Source: Phycisphaerae bacterium (lineage in GTDB: Bacteria > Planctomycetota > Phycisphaerae > Phycisphaerales > UBA1924). From it: a DNA stretch of 43,080 nucleotides. Positions 25,453 through 30,396 of the stretch are shown piece after piece. The position numbers and the translations under genes are program-made. Where the stretch lies: NCBI GenBank assembly GCA_030429485.1, contig JAUIFD010000008.1:1-43080 (forward strand), written 5' to 3'. How positions within the stretch are numbered: position 1 is the stretch's first letter; each line of letters starts with the position of its first letter. The notes under the pieces are model-generated. The model did no database searches, was not told where the DNA came from, and worked only from the letters and a program-made list of their open reading frames with translations.

Positions 25453-25739
25453 CCGCGGTGCGGTGCGGCAACACGCCGAGCGTGAGTAGACGATTGCCTG
25501 TTACGCACGTCCGGTCGTGTCCGACTTGGTGGCCGACGAAGCGGGGCGTCGGCAGTCGGCGTGGGTCGGCGACACTCCGCGACCCTTCCCCAACCCAGAG
25601 TGTGCCACGTGTCCGCCGCGTTTGCAACTGCCAGAGCGGCAGGGCCGTGCCATCACGACGCCCACAAGCACCGTTTCTGATGGACTGGAGCCGAAATCGC
25701 GGCCGAATAAGGCGGCGCGCGGCTTGCATTTGATTGGGC
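25453..25739 (+). other. Non-coding gap before clpB
   Basis: This 287-bp stretch has no convincing gene. Its composition is less biased than its flanks. It holds a loose inverted repeat ACACTC (25572-25577) / GAGTGT (25598-25603). No CIRCE operator or sigma-32 promoter was recognised, although a promoter for clpB must lie here. Confidence 0.5.
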
Positions 25740-28445
25740 ATGAGACCCGATCGACTTACGAACGCTGCCCAACAAGCCATCGCCTCCGCCCAGACTCGGG
25801 CGATGGGTGATTCGCACGCCGAGGTGACGGGCGTGCACCTGCTCGCGTCGCTGCTCGAGGAGCGCGGCGGGACAGCGCACGCGGTGCTGACACAGATCGG
25901 CGCTGACCCTGCGCGCATCGCGGAGCTTGCGGAGAGCGAGATCAAGCGCCTGCCGACGGTGAGCTCGAACGCGGGTTCGACGGGGCGCGAGATCATGGAG
26001 ATCCTCGCGAAGGCGGACAAGGAGGCCCGAGACCTCAAGGACGCGTACGTCTCCACGGAGCATCTGATTCTCGGGTTGTGCGAGGCGCCGGGGGCGGCTC
26101 GCGAGCTGTTGCAGGTCAACGGCGTGCGCAAGGCCGATGCGCTCAAGGCGATCAAGGCCATCCGTGAACGCTCCGGGGTAGAATCCATCCAGGATCAGTC
26201 GGCGGAGTCGAGCTTTGAGGCGCTCAAGAAGTTTGCGATCGACCTGACGGAGAAGGCGCAGCAGGGCAAGCTCGATCCGGTGATCGGGCGGGATGAAGAA
26301 ATCCGGCGCACGATGCAGGTGCTGAGCCGGCGCACGAAGAACAACCCGGTGCTCATCGGTGAGCCGGGCGTGGGCAAGACGGCGATCGCGGAGGGGCTCG
26401 CGCTGCGGATCGTCAACGGCGACTGCCCCGAGAGCATGCGCGACAAGCGGGTGATGGCGCTGGATGTCGGCGCGTTGCTCGCGGGGTCGAAGTTTCGCGG
26501 CGAGTTTGAGGAGCGGCTCAAGGGCGTGCTGCGCGAGGTGCAGGCGAGCGAGGGGCAGATCATCCTGTTCATCGACGAGCTGCACACGATCATCGGCGCT
26601 GGGGCTGCGGAAGGTGCGGTATCAGCGGGCAACTTGCTCAAGCCGGCACTGGCGCGGGGTGAGCTGCGGTGCATCGGCGCAACGACGCTCGACGAGTATC
26701 GCAAGCACGTGGAGAAGGACCCGGCGTTTGAACGTCGGTTCCAGCCGATCTACGTGGATCAGCCGAGCGTTGAGGAGACGGTGGCGATCCTGCGCGGGCT
26801 GAAGGACCGGTACGAGGCGCACCACGGCGTGCGCATTCAGGATGGCGCGCTCCTCGCGGCGGCGCAGCTCTCGCACAGGTATATCGCAGACCGGTTCCTG
26901 CCGGACAAGGCGATTGACCTGGTGGACGAGGCGGCGAGCAGGCTGCGCATCGAGGCGGACTCGATGCCAACGGAGCTCGACGAGGTGCGCAGACGGATCA
27001 TGCAGCTCGAGATCGAGCGCGAGGCGTTGAAGATCGAAGCAGGCACGAAGGCAGAGAGGCACGAAGGCACGAAGGAGGTCGATCGCATCGAGCGCGAGCT
27101 GGCGGAGTTGCAGGAGCGGAACCGGTCGCTGACGGCGGTGTGGGAGGCGGAGAAGGGCGAGCTCGATGCGGTGCAGTCACTCAAGGAGCGGATCGATCAC
27201 AAGCGCACGGAGCTTGAGCAGGCGCAGCGGCGCGGCGATCTGGAGACCGCGGCGCGGATCCAATATGGCGAGATGCGTGAGCTCGAGAGCGAGCTCAAGG
27301 CAGCAGAAGCCAAACTCGACGATCGCCAGGAGCGCGGCGATGCGCTGGTGAAGGAAGAGGTGGACGCCGAGCAGATCGCGGAGATCGTCGCGAGGTGGAC
27401 GGGCATCCCCGTGTCGCGTCTGGTCGAGACGGAGCGCGACAAGTTGGCGCGCATGGAAGATCACCTGCGCGAGCGCGTCGTCGGGCAGGATGAGGCGCTG
27501 CGTGCGGTGTCGGACGCGGTGCGCCGCTCGCGTGCGGGGCTTGGCGATCCGGATCGTCCGATCGGGTCGTTCCTGTTCCTCGGGCCGACCGGCGTGGGCA
27601 AGACGGAGACGTGCAAGGCGCTGGCGCGGTTCCTCTTTGACACCGAAGAGGCGATGGTGCGCATCGACATGTCGGAGTTCATGGAGAAGCACTCCGTGTC
27701 GCGGCTTGTGGGCGCGCCTCCCGGGTATGTCGGGTATGAAGAGGGCGGGGCGCTCACGGAGGCGGTGCGCCGTCGGCCGTACGCGGTGGTGCTGCTCGAT
27801 GAGGTCGAGAAGGCGCACCCGGACGTGTTCAACGTGCTGTTGCAGTTGCTCGACGACGGTCGCCTGACCGACGGGCAGGGGCGGACGGTCGACTTCCGCA
27901 ACACGATCGTGGTGATGACGTCGAACCTGGGCTCGCAGAAGATCCAGGAGATGGCGGAGAGCGGGGCTGAGGATTGGGAGATCGAGGCGCAGGTGCGCGA
28001 TCTGATCCGGCGCGGGCCGGGCGCGGATATGGACGCTTCGCCCAACATCGATCCGGAGACGGGGCGCGTGCGCGCACGGATGGACGTGGACGTGCGCGGG
28101 GCGTTCTTCCGCCCGGAGCTGCTCAACCGCATCGACGAGGTCGTCGTCTTCCATCAGCTCAAGAAGGAGCAGATCGCGAGCATCGTCGAGATTCAGCTTG
28201 CACGCCTGCGCCAGCGCCTCGCGGAGCGCGAGATCACGCTCGAACTCACCGAGACAGCGGTCGAGAAGATCGCGAGCGAAGGGTGGGACCCGGCGTACGG
28301 GGCTCGCCCGCTCAAGCGAGCGATCCAGCAGCGGCTGGAGAACCCCCTCGCGACACGCATCCTCGCGGGCGACTTCGGCCCTGGGGACACGGTGCGCGTG
28401 GATGCGGCGGGTGGGGTGTTGAGTTATGAGAAGGTGGGCGGGTAG
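25740..28445 (+). CDS. clpB: ClpB disaggregase (AAA+ chaperone)
   Basis: An ATP-driven hexameric disaggregase that works with DnaK to rescue aggregated proteins. At 901 residues it is slightly longer than E. coli ClpB. It has a double Clp-N repeat (about 1-150), AAA-1 with Walker A GEPGVGKT (207-214) and Walker [11 protein letters not shown], and a coiled-coil middle domain (about 410-540) with ELAELQERN and VWEAEKG. AAA-2 follows with [12 protein letters not shown], Walker A GPTGVGKT (about 614-621) and [16 protein letters not shown], and the C-terminal domain includes [14 protein letters not shown]. The ATG at 25740 begins the conserved N-terminus; there is no Shine-Dalgarno sequence. Residues about 434-446 in the middle domain are encoded by a short DNA repeat (see 27042). 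Confidence 0.96.
27042..27075 (+). repeat. Three copies of GGCACGAAGG inside the clpB middle-domain region
   Basis: GGCACGAAGG occurs at 27042-27051, 27059-27068 and 27066-27075; the last two overlap. It encodes [12 protein letters not shown], where E. coli ClpB has a shorter linker (around KESDEASKKR). The reading frame is kept. Confidence 0.7.
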
Positions 28446-28449
28446 GGGC

Positions 28450-28473
28450 GGGTACCCCGCCCCTCCGGGGCGG
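28450..28473 (+). repeat. Left copy of a perfect 24-bp inverted repeat
   Basis: This 24-bp unit begins with the palindrome GGGTACCC and continues into a 7-bp stem CCGCCCC/GGGGCGG with loop TCC. Its exact reverse complement lies at 28905-28928. It sits 4 bp after the clpB stop and could act as a hairpin terminator, but no T-run follows. Confidence 0.85.
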
Positions 28474-28527
28474 CAGATCGACACCGCCGGCTTCAGGGAT
28501 CTGATCCTGGTTTCCGATGGACTATCC

Positions 28528-28815
28528 ATGGAGGATCTCGAGGCTCATTTGGCGCGCCTCGTCGACGAACTCGAGCCTTTGCTCTCCGCGGAGCCGATGA
28601 TCAGGCACTTCATCGAACACCGCGAGTATGGACTGTGCTTCGAGTTTCTGTGCGAGGCCCTCCAAGAGCAGCGTGTGAGCGTGTTGCCCGCACAGATGCG
28701 GGCAATCGCGCAGCTGGGCAGAGAAATGGAGTTCGAACCAGAGACTTGGGCTGATATCGCGGTGACGGAAGACCCCGCATACGGCAGCGGATCATCGCTC
28801 TCCGGTGAACTCTGA
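28528..28815 (+). CDS. Orphan MafI-like immunity protein
   Basis: A 95-residue cytoplasmic protein. The pattern FIEHREYGLCFEFLCEALQEQ, then VSVLPAQMRAIAQLGREMEFEPETW, resembles the MafI family, which are immunity proteins that neutralise cognate polymorphic toxins. No toxin gene is adjacent. The codon choice (AGG, AGA, CTA, TTG, GGA, TCA) and lower GC differ from clpB and the sulfotransferase gene, which suggests acquisition. The ATG at 28528 has no clear Shine-Dalgarno sequence. The gene lies between perfect 24-bp inverted repeats (28450-28473 and 28905-28928). The family call rests on recognising the motif by eye. Confidence 0.65.
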   Translation: MEDLEAHLARLVDELEPLLSAEPMIRHFIEHREYGLCFEFLCEALQEQRVSVLPAQMRAIAQLGREMEFEPETWADIAVTEDPAYGSGSSLSGEL

Positions 28816-28904
28816 CGGCCCGATGAGCCTACCTGTACGCCTGTTTGCGAACTTCCAATCGCCAGTGCCCGCCCCCCGAGTGGATGCGAGCCCGCAGAGC
28901 GGTT

Positions 28905-28928
28905 CCGCCCCGGAGGGGCGGGGTACCC
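28905..28928 (-). repeat. Right copy of the 24-bp inverted repeat
   Basis: Exact reverse complement of 28450-28473. It ends 13 bp before the TAGCCT hexamer of the sulfotransferase gene, so it covers the place where a -35 box would be. Identity stops abruptly at both ends of the 24 bp. Confidence 0.85.
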
Positions 28929-28941
28929 GGCGGCATGTGAC

Positions 28942-28953: not shown

Positions 28954-30396
28954 ATGGCGTCAGACTCTCCCGGTGCTCGTGCGATGCAGGCGTATAACGC
29001 GGGCGACTTTGCGCGGGCGGTCTCGCTCGCGGAGCGGGCGCTCAAGGATCGGAAGCGGGATCACAACCTGCTGCATCTGCAGGCGGCGTGCCTGATGAAG
29101 ATGGGCGATCCGGAGGCGGCGCTGGAGAAGCTGCTCGCGGCGTGCCGCGTCGAGCGGCGGGACCCGCAACTCCTGATCTCGCTCGCGCAGACGTACCGGG
29201 CTCTCCAGCGGTTTGAGGAGTTTGACGCGACGCTCGGGCGCGTGCTGGAGATCGCGCCGGGGCTCGCCGACGCGGTGTACCTGCACGCGCAGTCGTACCG
29301 CGAGCGGGGGATGCTCGACGACGCGCGACGGGTGATCGAGGAGGCGATGGGCGCGACCGACGCGGGGCACGTTGATCCGACGCTGCTCGCGGCGCACGCG
29401 GAGGTCTGCCTCGCCGCGAAGGACACCGAAGCGGGGATGGCTTCGGCGGAGGCTGTGGTGGCGCGGGGGGATGCGGTGCGCGTCGAGGTTCGCCGGCGGG
29501 CGACCTTCCTGCTCGGACGCCTGCTCGATGGCGCGGGGCGATACGACGAGGCGTTCGAGGCGTTTTCTCGCGGGAACGCGATGTACACGACGCCGATCCG
29601 CGTGATGCCCGCGGCGTACGTGCGCGAGCGGTGGAGCGCCGAACGCCTCGCTGACGTGCCGGTGGCGAGTGAGCGCACGGAACTCCCGGTGCTTGTGTGC
29701 GGGATGCCGCGGACGGGGACGACGCTTGTCGAGCAGATGCTCGCGGCCCATCCGGAGATCGGGACCGTGGGCGAATGCGCAGCCCTGCCGGCGATGGAGC
29801 TGCGGTGCGATCCGGCGCGGCTCGACCAGCGCGCGATCGATCAGATGCAGCGGCAGTATCTGGAGGCGCTCGCGCCGGGCGCGCGCGGCGGCGAGGCCCG
29901 CGTGGTCGACAAAATGACGATGAACTACGCCATGCTCGGGCTTGCGTCGCGGGTTGTGCCGGGACTGCGCGTGATCTACTGCGTGCGCGATCCGCGCGAC
30001 GTATGTCTGTCCTGCTTCCAGCAGGACTTCACGGCGGACGCGCACCCGTACTCACGCGACCTGACGCAGTGCGCGCTCCAGTACGCGGAGCACACGCGGA
30101 TCATGGAGCACTGGCGCGCGGTGCTGCCGGACGTGGCGCTCATGGAGGTCCGGTACGCCGAGTTGGTGGAAGATCCGGAACGGGTGGTGCGTGCGATGCT
30201 CGGGTTCGTCGGCGTCGGATTCGATCCGGCATGCCTGCGCCACCACGAGACCGCGGCCCCCGTGACGACGGCGTCGAGCGCGCAGGTGCGAGAGCCCGTG
30301 TACCGCACAAGTCTCGCTCGGTGGCGGCACTACGGGGCGAATCTGGACCCGCTGGCCCAAGCGCTCCGCAAGGCGGGGGTCCCGCTCGAGGGGTAG
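28954..30396 (+). CDS. TPR-containing sulfotransferase
   Basis: A 480-residue protein. Residues 1-210 are tetratricopeptide-like repeats (e.g. AMQAYNAGDFARAVSLAERAL, FLLGRLLDGAGRYDEAFEAF). Residues about 240-480 form a sulfotransferase domain: GMPRTGTTLVEQML (about 249-262) binds the 5'-phosphosulfate of PAPS, and VIYCVRDPRDVCLSCFQQ is the 3'-phosphate site with the conserved Arg and Ser region. It would move sulfate from PAPS to an acceptor, either a glycan or a protein tyrosine. The TPR part may bind that acceptor. This arrangement is frequent in Planctomycetes and Proteobacteria. Confidence 0.88.
   Translation: MASDSPGARAMQAYNAGDFARAVSLAERALKDRKRDHNLLHLQAACLMKMGDPEAALEKLLAACRVERRDPQLLISLAQTYRALQRFEEFDATLGRVLEIAPGLADAVYLHAQSYRERGMLDDARRVIEEAMGATDAGHVDPTLLAAHAEVCLAAKDTEAGMASAEAVVARGDAVRVEVRRRATFLLGRLLDGAGRYDEAFEAFSRGNAMYTTPIRVMPAAYVRERWSAERLADVPVASERTELPVLVCGMPRTGTTLVEQMLAAHPEIGTVGECAALPAMELRCDPARLDQRAIDQMQRQYLEALAPGARGGEARVVDKMTMNYAMLGLASRVVPGLRVIYCVRDPRDVCLSCFQQDFTADAHPYSRDLTQCALQYAEHTRIMEHWRAVLPDVALMEVRYAELVEDPERVVRAMLGFVGVGFDPACLRHHETAAPVTTASSAQVREPVYRTSLARWRHYGANLDPLAQALRKAGVPLEG

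Follow-up and report, generated by a model that had tools for sequence, protein, structure and literature searches.

The segment at positions 28449–28929 of the window, the 43,080-nt stretch of DNA analyzed here, is probably an outward-facing REP doublet (REPIN/BIME-like) of a RAYT–REP system, carrying a foreign MafI-like gene as a passenger. The only other doublet of the same exact repeats in the source genome bounds a RAYT transposase gene that is located in frame within leuS.

Characterization of the Repeat Pair and Its Gene

A repeat search of the window identified two inverted repeat arms of 25 nt with 100% complementarity, one at 28449–28473 (forward strand) and one at 28905–28929 (reverse strand). 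The exact inverted repeats reported in the earlier note as 24 bp are real, with one extra outer base in each arm. The left copy consists of a C followed by the 24-mer GGGTACCCCGCCCCTCCGGGGCGG and lies 3 bp past the clpB stop codon; the right copy is its exact reverse complement, and the heads of both point outward. Each copy is composed of a 7-nt head, GGGTACC, and a 7-bp stem with a TCC loop, folding at −8.7 kcal/mol as single-stranded DNA. The hairpins occupy 28457–28473 on the forward strand and, from folding of the REP sequence, 28905–28921 on the reverse strand. The abrupt end of the repeat described previously was also recovered: similarity among the copies in the genome stops sharply at the 24-mer. 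In dinucleotide-preserving shuffles of the window, no chance match to the 24-mer with up to three mismatches was obtained. By inspection, no direct repeat that could represent a target-site duplication flanks this unit or the unit in leuS described below.

The space between the arms is 431 bp long and contains one convincing gene (28528–28815, forward strand). It encodes a 95-aa protein from ATG 28528, and its frame is open upstream, where CTG 28507 is a possible start. The gene matched almost the whole length of the MafI model NF033691 (E value, 9.9e-10; 38.1 bits; cut-off, 31), and no convincing Pfam family was found for it. The left neighbor is clpB (25734–28445, forward strand; gene calls and profile matches) and the right neighbor is a TPR-sulfotransferase gene (28954–30396, forward strand; start at GTG 28948 or ATG 28954), both outside the unit, which confirms the location given in the earlier note. 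The segment holds no toxin gene, in agreement with the proposal of an immunity gene without its toxin. MafI proteins are the immunity proteins of the Maf polymorphic toxin systems (PMC4287609), whose profile the present gene shares above the curated cut-off, but no MafB-type toxin, other polymorphic toxin, or maf island adjoins it, the flanks being clpB and the sulfotransferase gene. Therefore, the gene is called MafI-like by its profile, and membership in a Maf system is not claimed.

The codon score of the gene was 0.035, compared to 0.448 ± 0.092 in 96-codon pieces of the neighboring genes, which places it approximately 4.5 standard deviations below them and bears out the atypical codon use claimed for this single gene. 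Its GC3 was 0.73, compared to 0.87 in the neighboring genes. A protein search of the other 162 family genomes gave no credible relative; protein matches in two of them (G122 and G123) were rejected as unrelated reading frames that look like chance, and one weak profile match was present in G144. Across the class, MafI profile matches above the cut-off were found in three of 397 genomes (other matches of the class are L278, L279, and L281). No relative was found on viral contigs, and the search against plasmids gave one weak match, from Rhizobium. Judged by its codon use and distribution, the gene is foreign to this genome. Its product is predicted to neutralize a toxin, and more probably guards the cell against that of a competitor than serves the movement of the unit.

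A RAYT in Frame Within leuS

The source genome, a draft of Phycisphaerales type from a planctomycete (3.69 Mb in 290 contigs), contains nine copies of the 24-mer at seven loci. All nine are exact; a search tolerating as many as three mismatches recovered no degenerate copy. Five stand alone, several of these at a distance of a few to some 25 bp from a stop codon, and the others form two outward-facing doublets, namely the MafI-gene unit and a unit on contig C77 (G000:C77:5297–5937). The C77 doublet is formed by the same two REPs and encloses a RAYT of the cognate type, identified by profile and frame reading. The RAYT scored 87.2 bits against NF047646 (cut-off, 80), possesses the NHVH motif and the Tyr, and matched PDB 4er8 by sequence with an E value of 5.5e-6.

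The Y1_Tnp domain of this RAYT is in frame in the leuS ORF (L010:4350–8117). The leuS frame runs without a stop through REP 1 (GTPPLRGG), the transposase, and REP 2 (APEGRGTQ) and then continues as leuS, for a total of 1255 aa; by inspection, the REP sequence is stop-free in all six frames. A single match to this LeuS region was found in the source genome, the assembly of which is approximately 90% complete. It appears from the reading frame that LeuRS is made as one chain fused to the RAYT. In relatives that lack the insert, GAEIDF and LRVFTTRPDTLFG are joined here by a linker that is short and variable, indicating that the site tolerates length change. A structure model of the leuS–RAYT segment had low overall confidence (pTM, 0.41). 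The LeuRS editing domain was recognized in it and the score of the RAYT part (approximately residues 120–250) was close to 90, but the placement of the two relative to each other is uninformative. Two more in-frame RAYTs were observed in the source genome, in valS and rdgB (L157, G000:C273; L166, G000:C105), and each of the three RAYTs lies within a different inverted repeat.

Distribution of the REP Family

The search of the genome and its relatives for the 24-mer that the earlier note had proposed yielded, in addition to the nine exact copies, matches in 30 of 163 family genomes; this search tolerated few mismatches, and its match list is biased to close variants. The highest count, obtained with a relaxed pattern, was 248 in one genome. 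The exact 24-mer was absent from viral contigs. Among relatives, the stem shows compensatory changes at positions 11/21, 12/20, and 13/19, whereas the TCC loop is invariant. Among the matches listed for three REP-rich genomes (G049, G041, and G157), neighbors in opposite orientation within 1.5 kb faced outward in 28 cases and inward in three, and the outward doublets measured 51–216 bp.

The repeats are thus palindromic hairpins in the range of 20–40 nt that are dispersed through the genome and mainly intergenic, as is typical of REPs and REPtrons. They are also inverted, with heads outward and non-random pairing, as in REPINs and head-outward dimers, but the interior of the present pair is neither short nor gene-free. 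Because its 431 bp contain the MafI-like gene, the pair is termed REPIN-like and is not filed as a REPIN.

Comparison With Known REP Systems

The system shares with REPtrons, head-outward REP dimers (PMC3733652), and REPINs (PMC3116915) the palindromic hairpin with an unpaired 5′ tag, the intergenic and often post-gene location, the pairing in opposite orientation, and a RAYT flanked by the repeats. It differs from them in three respects: the tag is GTAC in all nine source-genome copies (GTAG or GTGG occurs in some relatives, which share the hairpin), one doublet encloses a MafI-like gene, and the RAYT is in frame within leuS instead of free-standing. The Stenotrophomonas maltophilia REPtron (TnpA-REP group 3) has a REP of 23 nt with a perfect 8-bp stem, a 3-nt loop, and a tetranucleotide tag, compared to 24 nt, a 7-bp stem, a 3-nt loop, and the GTAC tag here; moreover, no consistent CT dinucleotide precedes the present copies, only a pyrimidine before the head (9/9) (PMC8266576). 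Rickettsia palindromic elements and intragenic REPs are likewise in-frame palindromic repeats in housekeeping genes, including tRNA synthetase genes (PMC3733652), but in the present case a whole transposase gene together with two REPs is in frame in the host gene.

Origin of the MafI-Gene Unit

The same exact repeat pair bounds a RAYT in the same genome, and the C77 RAYT is therefore the candidate cognate transposase. By analogy with characterized enzymes, it is taken to be active and to recognize these REPs. The LeuRS-embedded RAYT would act in trans on single-stranded REP ends and cut near the tag, as other TnpA-REP enzymes do; for those enzymes, it is established that REPs are cut as single-stranded DNA (PMC8266576). 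Its action may have spread the REPs through the genome, and the MafI-gene unit may have moved or been captured as one piece, with the immunity-like gene carried along.

Several observations stand against this reading. Neither an empty site nor a second location of the passenger was seen, and the unit shows no target-site duplication. The other doublets without a RAYT, among the matches listed, are all short (51–262 bp) and too small for such a gene, so that passengers can be carried only rarely, if at all. Instead of the canonical GTAG, the tag of the GTAG super-family of REPs, the copies have GTAC, and a GTAC tag abolished cleavage in S. maltophilia and redirected it in Marinomonas (PMC8266576). 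The proposal in the earlier note of a small cassette or non-autonomous element was supported by the outward doublets, the RAYT in the sole other doublet, and the foreign passenger, but the paired repeats with variable cargo that it predicted were not seen: among approximately 34 doublets in the matches listed, no other gene-bearing doublet without a RAYT was present. The alternative offered there, a dispersed hairpin family that happens to flank the gene, was correct in that the repeats belong to a dispersed REP-type family with five of nine exact copies single, but this family also forms doublets and has a RAYT.

The clpB–sulfotransferase gene order was absent from all 29 of the nearest relatives examined, and the genes that follow clpB differ among relatives. 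One candidate syntenic site (L066) was discarded, as it is not linked to clpB. As a separate observation, matches to the C-terminal part of clpB that contain a single internal TAG were noted in three genomes of two genera (G004:C179:23888–24544, G025:C138:38170–38823, and G027:C33:311764–312417).

The two REPs could also have been inserted independently beside a horizontally acquired immunity gene that never belonged to a mobile unit, an explanation we regard as clearly less likely but worth serious consideration. Five of the seven REP loci in the source genome are single, and the lack of a second gene-bearing, non-RAYT doublet among the matches listed fits this explanation. REPs also prefer intergenic sites, so that adjacent gaps can both be struck; the chance that any two of eight REP loci fall within 600 bp is approximately 1%, and that they fall in neighboring intergenic gaps approximately 2%. 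However, independent insertion requires this 1–2% coincidence and the outward orientation as well, in a REP family where outward doublets are the rule, and with the unit removed, only 23–29 bp would separate clpB from the gene that follows. The outward-doublet geometry, the RAYT in the only other doublet, the small gap, the foreign passenger, and the low probability of coincidence together favor a single mobile unit over two independent insertions.

It is improbable that the hairpins are instead maintained as RNA elements, either terminators or mRNA stabilizers, that insulate the immunity gene from both of its neighboring genes. The stable 7-bp hairpin, the position of the left REP directly past a stop codon, and the compensatory stem changes are compatible with such a role, but a terminator would be harmful inside the reading frame of leuS, where the identical sequence also occurs; in addition, no T-run follows the hairpin, and the conserved unpaired head is left unexplained. 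A dedicated integron-like gene-cassette system using the repeats as recombination sites has hardly any credibility: a single small gene between two repeats recalls such a cassette, but the repeats are inverted, lack attC-type core boxes by inspection, and are single at five of their loci; the enzyme that accompanies them is a RAYT and not an integrase.

In-Frame RAYTs Across the Family

RAYT relatives were found in 65 of 163 family genomes, and 67 of the 70 RAYT loci read were in frame inside housekeeping genes. The host genes, assigned by visual inspection of conserved motifs and backed by Pfam for leuS only, were valS (31), rdgB (17), leuS (16, at two sites), and one case each of miaA, kbl, and a dnaK-like gene (L105, L110, and L121). 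Of the remaining three RAYTs, one was free-standing and two adjoined a contig end or masked sequence. The HUH motif was kept in 69 of the 70 RAYTs and the catalytic Tyr in 68 of 69. Host-gene changes on the RAYT tree numbered 12, compared to 34 in shuffles, indicating that the inserts mostly keep one host gene, with several switches.

Between two species of one genus, the valS insert and approximately 130 bp downstream differed by one base over 750 bp (L118:1444–2193 and L119), whereas the valS DNA farther out was 81–87% alike; the identity begins exactly at the left REP. A near-identical insert in divergent valS genes points to recent lateral transfer of the RAYT insert into the same valS site.

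Named relatives were mostly Phycisphaerales MAGs. Apparent in-frame RAYTs were also observed in carB-, dnaE-, alaS-, and clpB-like genes (L232, L237, L239, L244, L256, L261, and L268); these were from Verrucomicrobia and planctomycete MAGs, and many free-standing RAYTs were present besides. No account of a RAYT residing in a tRNA synthetase or another essential gene was found in the open-access papers searched, and one survey set aside unexpectedly long RAYT-family proteins as gene fusions or annotation errors (PMC6006769). In-frame RAYTs thus seem to be common in this bacterial family and apparently have not been described before.

Inteins and homing elements are known to be located in frame at recurrent sites of essential genes, with patchy occupancy and lateral transfer to the same site. 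The in-frame RAYTs share these recurrent essential-gene sites, the patchy occupancy, and the same-site lateral transfer, but unlike an intein, the insert is an HUH transposase bounded by REPs, and no splicing domain was found in it. With the balance about even, we propose that the RAYT–REP modules of Phycisphaerales, and apparently also those of Verrucomicrobia and others, are translated in-frame domains of essential enzymes at recurrent sites, intein-like without splicing and laterally mobile into the same sites, with REP ends able to carry passengers such as the MafI-like gene.

Significance

In the usual description, RAYTs are free-standing, domesticated transposases; the cause of their persistence in genomes is debated. 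If RAYTs ride in frame in essential genes, their persistence would be simply explained, because an essential enzyme would be lost to any frameshift or partial deletion, and their expression would be supplied by the host gene. In-frame residence also makes it possible to test the activity of the fused transposase and whether the enzyme tolerates or needs the insert. A REP doublet with a passenger gene, if true, would mean that RAYT–REP systems can carry adaptive cargo.
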